Positions 7,120 to 28,904 of a stretch of DNA of 64,000 nt are shown piece by piece (within the stretch, counting starts at the first letter, position 1; each line of letters starts with the position of its first letter). The DNA is from Pseudomonas marginalis. GTDB lineage: Bacteria > Pseudomonadota > Gammaproteobacteria > Pseudomonadales > Pseudomonadaceae. Location: contig NZ_JALJWV010000001.1 in NCBI RefSeq assembly GCF_024169655.1, positions 3,787,001 to 3,851,000 of the forward strand. Direction: 5' to 3'. The notes below the pieces were generated by a model, which worked only from the letters and a program-made list of their open reading frames with translations, ran no database searches and had not been told where the DNA came from. The position numbers were made by a program, and so were the translations under genes.

Positions 7120-7578
7120 ATGCCTGACCTACCCGCTTCACACCGCCTGCATATCGGCCGATTCAGCGAACCCAACCGTATCTACCTCATCACCACCAAC
7201 ACCGACGAACGCGTCCCGATATTCAAGAATTTCCATCTCGGTCGCTTGGTGGTCTGGCAGTTTCGGTTAGCTCAGTACCAAGGGCTGGCGCACTCCCTGG
7301 CATGGGTGATCATGCCGGACCATTTCCATTGGCTGCTCGAACTGAAAAAAGGCTCGCTGGCTGACCTGATGCGCCAGGTGAAGTCCAAAAGCACGCGGAG
7401 CGTCAACGGTGCGAGTGGACGCAAGGGGCGGCTTTGGCAGGAAAGCTTCCATGACCGCGCACTGCGCAAGGAAGACGACCTGGTGAAAATGGCCCGGTAT
7501 GTGGTGGCCAATCCATTGCGAGCGGGATTGGTTAGCCGGATTGGCGACTACCCGTTGTGGGATGCCATTTGGGTATAG
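7120..7578 (+). CDS. rayT: REP-associated tyrosine transposase (RAYT)
   Basis: 152-residue member of the Y1/HUH (IS200/IS605-like) transposase family domesticated to mobilise REP/REPIN sequences. The HUH metal-binding motif is visible as MPDHFHWLLE (about residues 65-74), and the catalytic Tyr as MARYVVANPLRAG (about residues 123-135). The family N-terminal pattern YLITTNTDERVPIF is also present. It lacks insertion-sequence ends and is bracketed by REPINs at 6932-7026 and 7590-7680, as described for RAYT loci in SBW25-type pseudomonads. It cuts single-stranded DNA at REP hairpins in characterised relatives. Full length, so presumably active. Confidence 0.93.
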   Translation: MPDLPASHRLHIGRFSEPNRIYLITTNTDERVPIFKNFHLGRLVVWQFRLAQYQGLAHSLAWVIMPDHFHWLLELKKGSLADLMRQVKSKSTRSVNGASGRKGRLWQESFHDRALRKEDDLVKMARYVVANPLRAGLVSRIGDYPLWDAIWV

Positions 7579-23967: not shown

Positions 23968-24875
23968 TGCTGATTGAACTGCAAGACCACCTGACCCACC
24001 TCACCCTCGCCCCGGCCGTGGGCGGCAGCATCGTCAACTGGCGCGTGCGCGCCAGCGGCCAGCCCCTGCTGCGGGCTAGCGATCAAGCGGCGCTGGACGC
24101 CGGCCTGCCCGGCAAACTGGCCTGCTATCCCCTCGCGCCGTGGTCCAATCGCATCGCCAACGGCGGTTTCGACACGCCCGCCGGCTGGCTGGCACTCACG
24201 CCCAACAGCCTCACCGATCCGCTGCCGATTCACGGGTCGGCCTGGCAACAGGCGTGGCGCGTGGTCAGCCGGTCGGCGGATGAAGTGCTGCTTGCGTTGG
24301 AATGCGCGACGCCGTTCGCCTATCGCGCCGAGCAGCGGTTTCGGTTGAGCAACGGCGTATTGAGTATCGAGCTGAGCGTGACGCATCTGGCCGCAACAGC
24401 GGCGTGGCACGGTTTGGGCTTGCATCCTTACTTCCCGCGCCGGGCGGGCACGCGGTTGCAGGCCAAGGCTGGGCAGGTGTGGATGAGTGATGCGTCCAAG
24501 CTGCCGACGGCGCTGACCCCCGTACACGCCGATTGGGATTTCCAACAGCTCAAGGGGTTGCCCCAAGCGTTGGTCGACAACGGTTTTTGCCAATGGGACG
24601 GGCATTGCCGGATCGAACAGCCGGAGCTGGGTTATGCCCTGGAATGCCAGGCCACCGGCGCCGATTACTTCTTGCTGTACTGCCCGCCGGGGCTGGGGTT
24701 CTTCTGCATCGAGCCGGTGAGCCATCCGGTGAATGCCCATCACTTGCCGGGCAGGCCGGGCCTGAAACTGCTGGAACACAACCAGTCAACCCAACTCAAT
24801 TTCACCCTGAAATACATTCCAACTGTGGGAGGGGGCTTGCCCCCGATGGCAGTGTGTCAGCCACTACATGCATGA
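23967..24875 (+). CDS. aldose 1-epimerase family protein with REP-encoded C-terminus
   Basis: 302-residue galactose-mutarotase-like protein. Visible are PLAPWSNRIANGGFD with PIHGSAWQQ (substrate His), AWHGLGLHPYFPR and FFCIEPVSHPVNAHHL, the typical order of catalytic His and Glu. By context it equilibrates uronate anomers so that Udh receives the right one. The last seventeen residues (TVGGGLPPMAVCQPLHA) are translated from the REPIN that begins at 24824, so the ancestral stop has been lost or displaced. Confidence 0.88.
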   Translation: MLIELQDHLTHLTLAPAVGGSIVNWRVRASGQPLLRASDQAALDAGLPGKLACYPLAPWSNRIANGGFDTPAGWLALTPNSLTDPLPIHGSAWQQAWRVVSRSADEVLLALECATPFAYRAEQRFRLSNGVLSIELSVTHLAATAAWHGLGLHPYFPRRAGTRLQAKAGQVWMSDASKLPTALTPVHADWDFQQLKGLPQALVDNGFCQWDGHCRIEQPELGYALECQATGADYFLLYCPPGLGFFCIEPVSHPVNAHHLPGRPGLKLLEHNQSTQLNFTLKYIPTVGGGLPPMAVCQPLHA

Positions 24876-24912
24876 CTGACCCACCGCTATCGGGGGCAAG
24901 CCCCCTCCCACA
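24824..24912. repeat. REPIN fused to the epimerase 3' end
   Basis: Canonical inverted REP pair. Its left half supplies the final codons and the stop of the epimerase frame. Confidence 0.9.
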
Positions 24913-24961
24913 TTTTTAACCCGGTTCGGCTTCCAGGATCAGGTCGGCTATAAGGCAGCCT

Positions 24962-25290
24962 CGCTTTGGCTTTGGCTTTTGCTTTGGCTTTGGCTTTGGC
25001 TTTGGCTTTTGATCTTAGGCGCCCCGTAAAACCACGCTGGCCGAACGCAGGCTTGAATCCGTGGGCAACCCGGCAGGACGCCGGGTTAGCCGTCCTGGGC
25101 CATGGATGGCCCATGACGGCGGCCCACGGATTCAAGCCGGAGTGAGGGCATGCCGAGCCTAGGCGAGGCACCGAGTGGTGGGGCAAGAGCCCTTTGGTTA
25201 CTTTGGGGCTTTTCCAAAGTGACCCGCCGTAAGGGCGGAACCCATAGCAGCCGTGACCGCAACAATGGATATGTACTCAACCCAACCCAA
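24962..25290 (-). repeat. structured long repeat, copy A, with GGCTTT microsatellite
   Basis: About 330 bp homologous, in inverted orientation, to 28310-28674. From left: a hexanucleotide tract of GGCTTT-like units (24962-25010), a conserved block (GATCTTAGGCGCCCCGTAAA), then a three-way-junction fold. The outer stem pairs 25050-25066 with 25122-25138 (17 of 17). Inner hairpins are 25067-25074/25080-25087, and 25089-25094/25115-25120 extended by 25096-25103/25106-25113. A conserved tail follows (GGGCAAGAGCCCTTTGGTTA and beyond). Confidence 0.9.
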
Positions 25291-25314
25291 AAAGCTGGTC
25301 AGCCCAGAGACCGC

Positions 25315-25339
25315 CATCGGGGGCAAGCCCCCTCCCACA
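25315..25339. repeat. solitary REP
   Basis: Single GGGGGCAAGCCCCC palindrome 18 bp from the end of the HlyD gene; no inverted partner nearby, so a singlet or half-REPIN. Confidence 0.82.
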
Positions 25340-25356
25340 TTTTGATCGGCATGGTG

Positions 25357-26508
25357 TCAGGGTGGGGAGTTTTTCAGGCGGCCGGCGGTGTCGATACTCA
25401 CCACCACCGACAACCCCGGCCGCAAGTGCTCGCTCTGCTCCTGGTCGGGATCAACGGTGATCCGCACCGGCAAACGCTGGGCGATCTTGACGAAGTTACC
25501 GGTGGCGTTATCCGCCTGCAACAGGCTGAACTCCGAGCCGGTCGCCGGGGAAATATACTGCACCGTGCCGCGAAACTTGCGGTGGTCGAGCGCATCGACG
25601 GTGAACGTTACCGGCTGGCCAACCTGCACATGGGCCATCTGGGTTTCTTTCATGTTGGCAATCACCCACAGCTGCTTGGGCACCAGCGCCATCAACTGCG
25701 CGCCGGAGTTGACGTAAGCGCCAAGGCGCACGCCAATCTGCCCCAACTGGCCGTCACGCGGCGCAGTGATGCGGGTGTTGGACACGTCGATCCGCGCCAG
25801 CTCCACCGCTGCTTCGGCACTCGCCACGGCGGCTTCCAGTGAACCGCGATTGACGATCACCGTCTGCAGGTCCTGACGCGCGATTTCCAGGCTGGCCTGG
25901 GCCTGCGCCACGGCGGCGAGAGTCTGGGCATTGGCGGCGCGGGTCACGTCCAGTTCGCGCCTGGACACTGAACCGTCGCTGATCAGTTCTTCGTTGCGGC
26001 GCAGGTCGGCAGTGCTTTTGCGCGCCTGGGCCTGGCTGTCCACCAGCGCGGCCTGGCGCAGTTTGATAGTGGCTTCGGCGCTGTTGCGTTGCTGCACCAC
26101 ATTCGCCAGCGCGGCCTTTTGCACCGCCAGTTGCGCCAGGGCCTGATCCAGGCGCTGCTTGTAGATGCGGTCATCCAGGCGCACCAGCAGGTCGCCGGCC
26201 TTGACGTACTGGAAGTCCTGCACCGGCACTTCGAACACATAGCCGCTGAGCTGCGGGCCAATGATCGTGACCTGGCCGCGCACCAGGGCGTTCTCGGTGG
26301 TTTCCACCGCGCTGCTGAACGGCGGCAATTGCCAGGCATACAGCACGATCAACACGCCGACGAGGGCAATCGCGGCAAAGCCCAGGGACGAGAGAATGCG
26401 CACCCCCAGGGAGCGCGGTTCGGTGACCGTGGCACCCGGTGGCGTGGCGCCTTCAGGGGTGGCGGCGATGGCGTTGGTAGTGGTCGTGGTGGTGGTCGGT
26501 TCGGTCAT
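25357..26508 (-). CDS. HlyD/EmrA-family periplasmic adaptor
   Basis: 383-residue membrane fusion protein of an EmrAB-type multidrug exporter. A short Thr-rich cytoplasmic tail (EPTTTTTTTNAIA) precedes one transmembrane helix (about residues 42-64). Lipoyl halves (VTIIGPQLSGYVFEVPVQDF; TAPRDGQLGQIGVRLG) flank a long helical hairpin. The ATG at 26508 overlaps the permease stop as ATGA, fixing this start; a GTG 19 codons earlier is less likely. No outer-membrane channel gene is adjacent, so it must borrow one. Confidence 0.9.
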   Translation of the reverse strand: MTEPTTTTTTTNAIAATPEGATPPGATVTEPRSLGVRILSSLGFAAIALVGVLIVLYAWQLPPFSSAVETTENALVRGQVTIIGPQLSGYVFEVPVQDFQYVKAGDLLVRLDDRIYKQRLDQALAQLAVQKAALANVVQQRNSAEATIKLRQAALVDSQAQARKSTADLRRNEELISDGSVSRRELDVTRAANAQTLAAVAQAQASLEIARQDLQTVIVNRGSLEAAVASAEAAVELARIDVSNTRITAPRDGQLGQIGVRLGAYVNSGAQLMALVPKQLWVIANMKETQMAHVQVGQPVTFTVDALDHRKFRGTVQYISPATGSEFSLLQADNATGNFVKIAQRLPVRITVDPDQEQSEHLRPGLSVVVSIDTAGRLKNSPP

Positions 26509-28148
26509 GAAGAAGCGCCGCTGGGTTGAACGGGAGTGGCCGCTTTGGTGGTGCTTAACAGCCACAGACTGCGGGTAAAGATCCAGAGCATGGTCAGGAT
26601 CGCGACGATCGCGATCAGCATGAACACATCGTTGTAGGCCATCACATTTGCCTCACGGGTCGCCGCCGTGGCAAGGCTGCGAATGCCCATGAGGTTACGC
26701 AAGTCCGGGTCGGCGACGATACCGCCATAGGCCGAACCGCCGCTCTGCACCCGCGCGGCGACACGCGGGTCGAGCAGGGTCAGGTGCTCGACGATCATGC
26801 TCGAATGAAACTTCTCGCGCACAACCTGGAACGTCCCGAGCAACGCCGCGCCAATCAGGCCGCCGAGGTTCTGGCAAATGCCGAACATCACCGAAAAACT
26901 CACCAGGTTGCGCGGGTTGGTCAACACGTTCTTGGTGCCCAGCACCATGGTCGGCCCGAGAAAAAACGTGCCGCCAAAGCCTAGCAGGAACTGGCTGATG
27001 TACAGATTCTGCGGGCGGGTCAGGTTGCTGGAGAAACTGTCCATCACCGACCCGGTGGCCATCAGTGCCAGGGAAATGACCAGCGGCATCAGCAAGTGCG
27101 CCGGGTTGATCGTCAACGCACTGACCACCAGCCCGGCCACCGCGCCCGCCAACATCACCACGTACAGCGTGTGCATTTGCTGGTAGCTCATGTTCAACAT
27201 CTGCATGAAGCCCACCGCGCCGGTGGACTGCTCCGACAGCACCATGCGAATCAGGATCACCGCCAGCGCCAGGCGAATCATGGTGCCGCTGCCCAGCCAA
27301 CGGGTCATCAGCAACGGGTTGGCGCGATTATGCTCAATCGCCAGGCCGGTCATGATCAGCACCAGCGAACAGGCCGACGCCACACCGATCCACGGCGCTT
27401 CGAGCCACCAGTCGATCCGCCCGAGGGAAAGCACTGCGCAGAGCAGCGCCACCCCGCTGGCGAGGATGGCGAAGGTGAGAAAGTCGAGTTTTTCAAAGGT
27501 CTTGAAGCGGTCGCCAGGTGGCAACTTGAGCAGGAACACGCAGCCCAGGCAGATCAGCGCCATGCCCAGCTCAAACAGGTACAGGCCACGCCATTCGGCG
27601 ATTTGCAGCAAATCTTCGGAAAACAGCCGCGCCAGCGGCAACGCCAACTGCGCGGTGCCCAGGCCCAGCACCAAGGCTTTCAAGCGCCACTTGGCCGGGA
27701 ACGCCTGGATCATGTAATACAACCCCAGGGAACTGAGCGCCGCGCCGACCATCCCGTGAGCGGCGCGCACGGCGATGGCGGAGTTGAGGTCGTTGACGAA
27801 CAAGTGGCCGAAGGTCACCAGCGCATACAGCACCAGGAACACCTCGGTAAACGCACGCAGGCCGAATTGCTGGCGGAACTTCACCAGGAGCAGGTTCATG
27901 CAGACGTTGGTCATGACATAAGCGGCGGGCAGCCAGGCCATTTCCGCCGTGGTCGCGCCGAGGACGCCTTGCAGGTATTGCAGGTTGGCGATCACCAACG
28001 AGTTGCCGAGGCCGCCGGTGATTGCGACCAGGACGCCGACCAATGCATACAGCCAGCGTTTGTGGGTGGGGTGTAGCGGCGTCGACGGCGAACCCGGCAG
28101 GGCCGGACGCTCGTGGGGCTGCCAGGTGCGGGGGGTGTAGTTGTCCAT
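26505..28148 (-). CDS. MFS multidrug exporter, EmrB/DHA2 type
   Basis: 547-residue, about fourteen-helix drug:H+ antiporter. It shares an operon with the HlyD adaptor just downstream (4-bp overlap). The N-terminal cytoplasmic tail is Pro-rich; TM segments run from about residue 34. AHGMVGAALSSLGLYY and the late helix DVFMLIAIVAILTMLW are visible. Length and pairing are those of EmrB, but the motif-C Pro/Gly pattern is not sharp, so it may belong to a side branch. Flanked on both sides by inverted copies of a structured repeat. Confidence 0.87.
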   Translation of the reverse strand: MDNYTPRTWQPHERPALPGSPSTPLHPTHKRWLYALVGVLVAITGGLGNSLVIANLQYLQGVLGATTAEMAWLPAAYVMTNVCMNLLLVKFRQQFGLRAFTEVFLVLYALVTFGHLFVNDLNSAIAVRAAHGMVGAALSSLGLYYMIQAFPAKWRLKALVLGLGTAQLALPLARLFSEDLLQIAEWRGLYLFELGMALICLGCVFLLKLPPGDRFKTFEKLDFLTFAILASGVALLCAVLSLGRIDWWLEAPWIGVASACSLVLIMTGLAIEHNRANPLLMTRWLGSGTMIRLALAVILIRMVLSEQSTGAVGFMQMLNMSYQQMHTLYVVMLAGAVAGLVVSALTINPAHLLMPLVISLALMATGSVMDSFSSNLTRPQNLYISQFLLGFGGTFFLGPTMVLGTKNVLTNPRNLVSFSVMFGICQNLGGLIGAALLGTFQVVREKFHSSMIVEHLTLLDPRVAARVQSGGSAYGGIVADPDLRNLMGIRSLATAATREANVMAYNDVFMLIAIVAILTMLWIFTRSLWLLSTTKAATPVQPSGASS

Positions 28149-28184
28149 TCAGTGACCTTGATGAGCCGACACGCAAGGTCGGTG

Positions 28185-28203
28185 ACTCCATTACTCAGGG
28201 AGT
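28185..28203. promoter_or_regulatory. dyad upstream of emrB
   Basis: ACTCC (28185-28189) and GGAGT (28199-28203) form an inverted repeat 37 bp before the emrB start codon. Spacing and position resemble MerR-type operators of drug pumps. No regulator gene is adjacent. Confidence 0.25.
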
Positions 28204-28309
28204 AGTAAACCTGAGAGGAGTTCATCTTGCCATGTTGAGGGTGCAATTGATTTCTGGAGCGGGCGTGGTCAAGTGTGGGGGTTGGCGGTGATGGCGGGCT
28301 CTGGGCCGG

Positions 28310-28674
28310 TTGGGTTGGGTTGGGTTGAGTACATATCCGTTGCTGCGGTCACGGCCGCTTATGGTTCCGCTCTTACAGCGGGTCACTTTGGAAAAGCCCC
28401 AAAGTAACCAAAGGGCTCTTGCCCCACCACTCGGCACCTCGCCTAGGCTCGGTGTGCCCGAACGCAGGCATTACTCCGCGGGCCGCCGTCACGGGCCATC
28501 CATGGCCCGGGACGGCTAAACCGGCATCCCTGCCGGTTTACCCGCTGCGTAATACCTGCGTTCGGCCAGCGTGGTTTTACGGGGCGCCTAAGATCAAGAT
28601 CAAGATCAAAAGCAAGAGCAAGAGCAAGAGCAAGAGCAAGAGCAAGAGCAAGAGCAAGAGCAAGAGCAAGAGCA
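28310..28674 (+). repeat. structured long repeat, copy B, with AAGAGC microsatellite
   Basis: Inverted homologue of 24962-25290. The three-way fold is preserved with different sequence. Outer stem: 28459-28468 with 28555-28564, 28470-28474 with 28549-28553, and 28478-28482 with 28541-28545. Two inner hairpins match those of copy A with compensatory changes. The right end is a hexanucleotide tract: three AAGATC-like units, then about ten AAGAGC units ending at 28674. AAGAGC replaces the AAAGCC (GGCTTT) of copy A. Confidence 0.9.
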
Positions 28675-28720
28675 ACGGCGTTTTCAAGGGGGCAAGGGGG
28701 TCTATCTGATCTATGGATAT

Positions 28721-28819
28721 CCAAATGTGGGAGGGGGCTTGCCCCCGATAGTGGTGGATCAGTCATGCATGTAGTGACTGACACACTGCCATCGGGGGCA
28801 AGCCCCCTCCCACATTTGG
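28721..28819. repeat. REPIN 3' of the DASS permease
   Basis: Symmetric inverted pair with extended ends CCAAATGTGGG / CCCACATTTGG, lying between the microsatellite and the permease gene's 3' end. Confidence 0.9.
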
Positions 28820-28904
28820 ATCTCCTTTGTACATTGGATCTCCTTTGTATTGGCGACCCCATGTGTATTGGAGACCCCATGTATGTTGAAAACCACGCGC
28901 CATA

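Follow-up and report, generated by a model that had tools for sequence, protein, structure and literature searches.

The RNA motif TwoAYGGAY (Rfam RF01731) is listed, in the available text of Weinberg et al. 2010 (PMC2864571), as probably an RNA and probably not cis-regulatory, with occurrences in the human gut, in gamma-Proteobacteria and in Clostridiales. A role as a binder of the regulator CsrA was proposed in 2014, in a text which, in its available part, speaks of Clostridia (PMC4333381), and ANGGA in short hairpins is described in accessible portions of PMC7366521 as the preferred CsrA target. In a stretch of 64,000 nucleotides from Pseudomonas marginalis (contig NZ_JALJWV010000001.1, positions 3,787,001 to 3,851,000; hereafter the window), the two inverted repeats on either side of an emrBA-like drug-export operon are copies of this catalogued but poorly understood RNA-structure repeat, which is spreading in Pseudomonas genomes, often as head-to-head pairs. 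TwoAYGGAY is known as an RNA family; what appears new, going by the literature searched, is its arrangement, which is often paired, linked to repetitive extragenic palindromic (REP) sequences, gained or lost at given sites and, in some genomes, biased in strand with respect to the replication fork. Two half-units, each joined to REPs and with its tail inward, are present in the window; they are probably independently acquired half-copies of a dispersed structured-RNA element with a TwoAYGGAY core.

The two copies lie in inverted orientation at 24960-25290 and 28315-28646, their arm pairs being 79% and 88% complementary. An earlier note on this DNA had described homologous inverted copies flanking the operon, and both were indeed located, on opposite strands. 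The left structured arm (25021-25273, + strand) has a type 1 stem and comprises a basal stem, a three-way junction, downstream hairpins and a GGATATG end; the right arm (28332-28585, - strand) is inverted relative to it and has a type 2 stem. Both exceed the Rfam cut-off of 43 bits for RF01731, with 51.8 bits on the left (25043-25145, + strand) and 55.1 bits on the right (28452-28571, - strand). The genome contains seven RF01731 matches and 17 DNA matches to the longer arm, seven of which are near-full copies. RNA folding gives for each copy an outer stem, two inner hairpins and further hairpins, with z-scores of -6.3 and -7.1 relative to shuffled sequences, none of 200 shuffles being as stable. 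The loop of hairpin 2 is AUGGAU in both copies, and that of hairpin 1 is AGGGAU on the right and a five-base AGGAC on the left. The differences between the copies to which the note had drawn attention can be read in the sequence: the outer stem is CTTGAATCC..GGATTCAAG versus TATTACGCAG..GGAGTAAT, one pair in the inner hairpins is exchanged between AACCCGGC/GCCGGGTT and AAACCGGC/GCCGGTTT, and another between TGGGCCAT/ATGGCCCA and CGGGCCAT/ATGGCCCG. Two open reading frames (ORFs) that run across the copies were rejected as genes, neither having a Pfam match.

Selection maintains a fold in the sense strand of the arm, made up of a basal stem, a three-way junction and additional hairpins. The 131 arm hits from this genome and its relatives, among which many places were represented twice, contained 64 distinct arms in which both end motifs were present, a requirement that leaves out arms with other cores. 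They were reduced to 35 at less than 93% identity; L103, which carries a deletion, was dropped and the left arm of the window added, the right arm being represented by a relative 96.9% identical to it (genomes and fetched loci of this comparison carry G and L numbers, respectively). The consensus of these 35 non-redundant Pseudomonas arms has 75 pairs, 31 of which change on both sides. Cells with two-sided changes number 217 versus 62 in shuffled alignments, 98.5% of cells are paired versus 89.2%, and the values of five covariation measures were reached by none of 500 shuffles. Sliding the partner columns by 1-3 positions lowers the paired cells to 31-44%. Since several different outer stems occur among the aligned arms, the covariation exceeds one allele. 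The sense strand folds better than its complement, both as a consensus (-111 versus -89 kcal/mol) and in all 35 single arms, and the conserved covarying structure lies on the strand stated for RF01731. The note's proposal that covariation implies selection on a folded nucleic acid is thus strongly supported by 31 two-sided pairs out of 75 and a favoured sense strand; in the larger alignment by which it was to be judged, the stems are kept and the covariation is significant. The two window copies by themselves amount to a single allele difference, since near-copies of each lie in one unit elsewhere in the genome. This unit, a head-to-head pair, is situated at 3.55 Mb, and its arms match the right and left window arms at 96.9% and 93.7%, respectively.

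When two arms are close neighbours, they are arranged head to head with a spacer between them. Pairing was counted with a pattern for the downstream hairpin in 11 genomes, for which 300 of 329 matches were listed (13 of 19 in G020 and 25 of 48 in G112). Among the matches listed, neighbours within 1.3 kb were arranged (-)(+) in 47 cases, (+)(-) in none and on the same strand in one, so that all 47 opposed close pairs have their heads inward. The share of paired arms varies in this set, from 4/81 in G181 to 22/33 in G017. In relatives, the head-to-head unit has hexamer arrays and usually REPs in the middle and GGATATG tails outside. Such arrays are found in the window as well, at the head of the left arm (24960-25015, + strand; pyrimidine-rich, of a length that varies between copies) and of the right arm (28590-28673, - strand; GATCAA/GAGCAA on the + strand). 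Outside the genus, in other Gammaproteobacteria, 19 loci (L145-L163) comprised five head-to-head pairs (L145, L149, L153, L154, L162), one pair in reverse order (L160), two same-strand pairs (L159, L161) and 11 with a single copy in view; the list from a class-wide search adds three head-to-head pairs, one in G468 and two in G579. In the available literature searched, no description of head-to-head pairing of these arms was found. RF01731 was matched at E 0.001 in 211 of 298 Pseudomonas genomes, 185 of which reach the curated cut-off, in 24 of 369 genomes drawn from the class (16 at the curated cut-off) and in none of 14 control genomes; this genome belongs to both the Pseudomonas and the class set, and copies per genome are floors, as at most nine (Pseudomonas) or seven (class) candidates were scored in each. 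Matches to the arm core are in many cases close to the end of a contig, and the repeat therefore probably breaks draft assemblies. Named species with such matches include many of the P. fluorescens group, and P. orientalis carries many copies. An ORF that looks nuclease-like by eye (L154:1658-2611) is enclosed by two inverted TwoAYGGAY copies separated by 1.2 kb, and at L104:2202-3579, and likewise at L045, a pair with a different core is found between two outward-facing cobalamin riboswitches.

The arms are found next to REPs, and individual sites gain or lose them. A REP core was present on the tail side of 39/40 sampled G181 arms and on the head side of 25/40, compared with 1/160 and 2/160 control windows. 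Of the 23 pair spacers inspected, 21 contained REPs; two of these entries represent a single unit retrieved twice. In the window, a REPIN, i.e., two inverted REPs, precedes the head of each copy (24818-24915 on the left, 28715-28825 on the right). The left copy occupies a 427-bp segment with 28-bp REP direct repeats at its boundaries, one at 24889-24916 and one, on the tail side, at 25316-25343; L110 has a single REPIN at the same site and nothing else. A REPIN forms one hairpin from two inverted REPs, which is not the case for the arms: these adjoin REPs but are not REPs. In two relatives, G181 and G201, some arms are situated inside an element of about 500 bp whose inverted ends measure 18-20 bp. 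The two ends were found together at 10 of 46 loci, which represent eight distinct insertions, four of them with flanking repeats of 7-8 bp; a further 21 loci have the left end only. For one site the empty and filled states can be compared directly: in G135 (L351) the REP is continuous and reads GGCCTCATCGGGGGCAAG; in G201 (L352), TCATCGGG stands on both sides of a 503-bp arm-bearing element, giving an 8-bp target duplication. The orthologous copy in G181 (L350) has lost the left repeat. The anchor sequence of this site was found in 17 of 30 loci, with an arm within 900 nt in two (L350, L352) and none in 15; the remaining 13 loci were not judged. The arm-bearing element with inverted ends therefore transposes in relatives, with target duplication. 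Terminal inverted repeats and a target duplication, the hallmarks of miniature inverted-repeat transposable elements, are both seen in this element of the relatives and are lacking in the window copies.

Genes of the Y1 type, resembling REP-associated tyrosine transposases (RAYTs), were found in all six genomes searched with PF01797, a family that is not RAYT-specific and also matches 5 of 14 control genomes. One of the two such domains in this genome lies in the window itself (7297-7503, + strand, 31.2 bits). Two pair spacers in G010 contain ORFs: a transposase-like one in a head-to-head spacer (L085:2880-3908), which we take to be of the IS110 type, and a small one (L080:3139-3495), presumably DUF6124-like. 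An autonomous element was considered on account of these ORFs and rejected; since 21 of the 23 spacers hold REPs, the two ORFs look like later insertions.

Moreover, single arms tend to oppose the replication fork. Among the listed matches, 142 of 199 singles did so (p = 1.5e-9 against 0.5 and 5.6e-4 against 0.6), a count from which G138 is excluded and in which copies, whether from one genome or from several, are not entirely independent of one another. The bias is carried by G181 (55/77), G188 (30/42) and G112 (18/25), and is not seen in G000 (3/5) or G020 (5/11). An arm was counted as single when no second pattern match lay within 1.3 kb, and some singles in G017 have a partner which the pattern missed. 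Replichores were delimited by a dif-like match in nine of the ten genomes counted, with the origin placed half a genome away; G019, for which no dif match was available, was split at half its length, and its subtraction leaves 131/187. The record starts with dnaA in G181, G188, G112, G134 and G074, and not in G000, G017, G019, G020 and G178. Gene orientation as a cause of the bias is unsupported: in 40 of the 81 G181 arms, stratified 20/20, the flanking genes were ++ in 11 cases and -- in 11. Y1 transposases are tied to the lagging-strand template, according to the available part of PMC6006769. The inverted-end carrier, rather than the arm, may be responsible for part of the fork bias.

Within the aligned arms, the GGA loops are highly conserved. 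Hairpin 2 is CANGGANG in 35/35, and hairpin 1 reads CA(N)GGANG in 34/35 when the loop length is relaxed, so that GGA stands in at least two hairpin loops, the sequence feature of CsrA/RsmA targets. The base before GGA varies while GGA itself is kept. In Rfam, TwoAYGGAY and RsmY share the clan label CL00106. The RsmE consensus is longer than ANGGA.

A number of observations weigh against the explanation of the window repeats as half-copies of a structured-RNA element with this core. Hairpin 1 has the strict eight-letter site in only 17 of the 35 aligned arms, 17 having a five-base loop and one lacking GGA. Among 16 further arms, taken from 17 loci with weak matches or from G019 and searched over 190 nt upstream of the hairpin they share, 11 had no site, three had one and two had two; of the 40 sampled G181 arms, six had no site and one had a single site. 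Since such arms exist, the frame as a whole cannot have CsrA binding as its function. The 11 site-less arms come from five genomes (G007, G011, G015, G016, G019), four of which are without an RF01731 match, G015 having at least nine; as they retain the frame, the GGA loops belong to one core type. The inverted end of G181 and G201 had no match in the window, so we infer, and do not observe, the route by which the window copies arrived. Nor is the strand test clean: at pairs with a Watson-Crick majority, G-U exceeds A-C (54 versus 11 cells, or 13 A-C cells with one loop-closing pair included), but the complement folded likewise also gives more G-U than A-C (53 versus 25), and since RNAalifold favours G-U, this count is weak evidence. 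Finally, the repeat differs widely in copy number and location, as selfish DNA does. A CsrA sponge as the general function of the repeat is weakened by the arms without loops, and RsmA/CsrA-type binding as the selected function of the TwoAYGGAY-core version, which the loop sequences suggest, is conceivable but somewhat doubtful. At L043, L045, L049, L064 and others, a different multi-branch core without GGA loops is followed by the same downstream hairpins.

The mirrored placement around an operon had led the earlier note to propose a composite mobile unit, with emrBA carried between the repeats. The operon consists of an emrA-like membrane-fusion gene of the HlyD family (25357-26565, - strand) and an emrB-like transporter gene of the major facilitator superfamily (26505-28148, - strand), both resident and outside the repeat; the span 24962-28674 marked in the note thus has the repeats at its ends, as claimed, but encloses an operon that does not belong to them. 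emrBA was matched in 85 of 149 Pseudomonas genomes, and the 30 best loci were fetched and arms sought within about 1.5 kb on either side. At 20 of these, no arm was detected on either side, bearing in mind that the search used the window's own arms, which strongly diverged ones could escape. An arm was found on the emrB side only in six and on the emrA side only in two; L112 combines a full unit at one flank with a 40-bp piece at the opposite one; the window alone has substantial arms on both flanks. Arms hence come and go independently on each side, and galM and an SLC13 gene still flank emrBA where neither repeat is present (L106, L108). In a composite transposon, relatives without the copies should lack the cargo at that place; here the operon, with the same neighbours, is an ordinary resident and not cargo of the repeats. 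In addition, the layout of the window, with tails inward over 3 kb, reverses that of the 47 close opposed pairs, and the left copy was inserted separately between REP direct repeats. The composite transposon was rejected on the relatives' loci, and we consider it highly improbable.

Two other explanations have more in their favour. The arms could be transcript-end elements placed after genes, acting as two-way terminators, RNA stabilisers or antisense barriers, with a G-poor, A/C-rich tail that could load Rho. Tails are indeed C/A-rich, and rough gene calls at 43 loci gave one divergent, 18 convergent and 24 same-strand gene pairs, the G181 sample comprising 17 convergent, one divergent and 22 same-strand. 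However, purging of insertions upstream of genes would be expected to produce such a bias as well, and the gene caller erred, missing emrA in the window. No T-run was seen by eye at arm ends, and sense arms occur in either orientation relative to same-strand genes. We regard this explanation as unlikely. Alternatively, the repeat may be selfish DNA, its structure being kept for spreading as single-stranded DNA or RNA and its loops having no host role. This would agree with the variable copy number (81 matches to the downstream-hairpin pattern in G181, 7 in this genome), the retention of the frame while the core differs, the transposition of the arm-bearing element and a fork bias for which flanking genes offer no explanation. 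Yet covariation favours one strand, and the constancy of GGA next to a varying base fits a protein-bound RNA. Since the inverted-end element is found at some loci only, it appears to be a carrier and not the arm itself, and G000 and G020 are without strand bias. Selfish DNA is somewhat unlikely as the explanation, although less so than a transcript-end role.

The explanation as independently acquired half-copies of a structured-RNA element would imply that the window copies arrived by REP-linked insertion or recombination, without a transposase of their own. The arm may then be transcribed by read-through or from a putative promoter, and by analogy with Rsm RNAs its GGA loops could bind RsmA/CsrA-type proteins. 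A wider proposal, which we put forward tentatively as it falls a little short of an even chance, is that a family of structural elements, paired head to head, is scattered across Gammaproteobacteria and has TwoAYGGAY as one of its interchangeable cores. The frame, made of basal stem, downstream GGTTACTTT..AAAGTRA hairpin and outward tails, would persist while the apical domain is swapped in Pseudomonas, and copies would be carried by REP and inverted-repeat DNA, the replication fork determining their orientation.

How do these arms compare with known systems? As members of RF01731, both window copies match the two-hairpin core and exceed the gathering cut-off. However, the family's matches cover only 103-120 nt of one arm, whereas the arm here is about 250 nt long, often head to head and tied to REPs, features which the available description of TwoAYGGAY (PMC2864571) was not found to contain. 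A catalogued "RNA motif" of unknown role proves at many sites to be one half of an element that is paired and disperses, which would explain why TwoAYGGAY lacks a fixed gene context. With the REPIN/RAYT system, as far as the available part of PMC3116915 describes it, the repeat shares the character of small intergenic DNA, REPs adjoining the arms and occupying most pair spacers examined, but the arms are about 250 nt long and asymmetric, have a branched fold and are not REPs. Strand bias together with an exchangeable core offers a way to tell host function from selfish spread, an old question for REP-type repeats. Other intergenic repeats of Pseudomonas, compared by description only and from partial texts, include R200 (320 bp) and R26 (352 bp; PMC2718517) and Ppu-1 (617 bp; PMC2267715), which are of similar size, Ppu-1 being predicted to be structured. 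Finally, the arms resemble the small RNAs that titrate CsrA/RsmA, such as RsmY (RF00195), in having GGA in two hairpin loops and in belonging to clan CL00106, but they are dispersed repeats and not one regulated gene, and are candidate binders judging from their loops. The arms allow one to test directly if RsmA/CsrA sites can be added to a genome, or removed from it, by mobile repeats.

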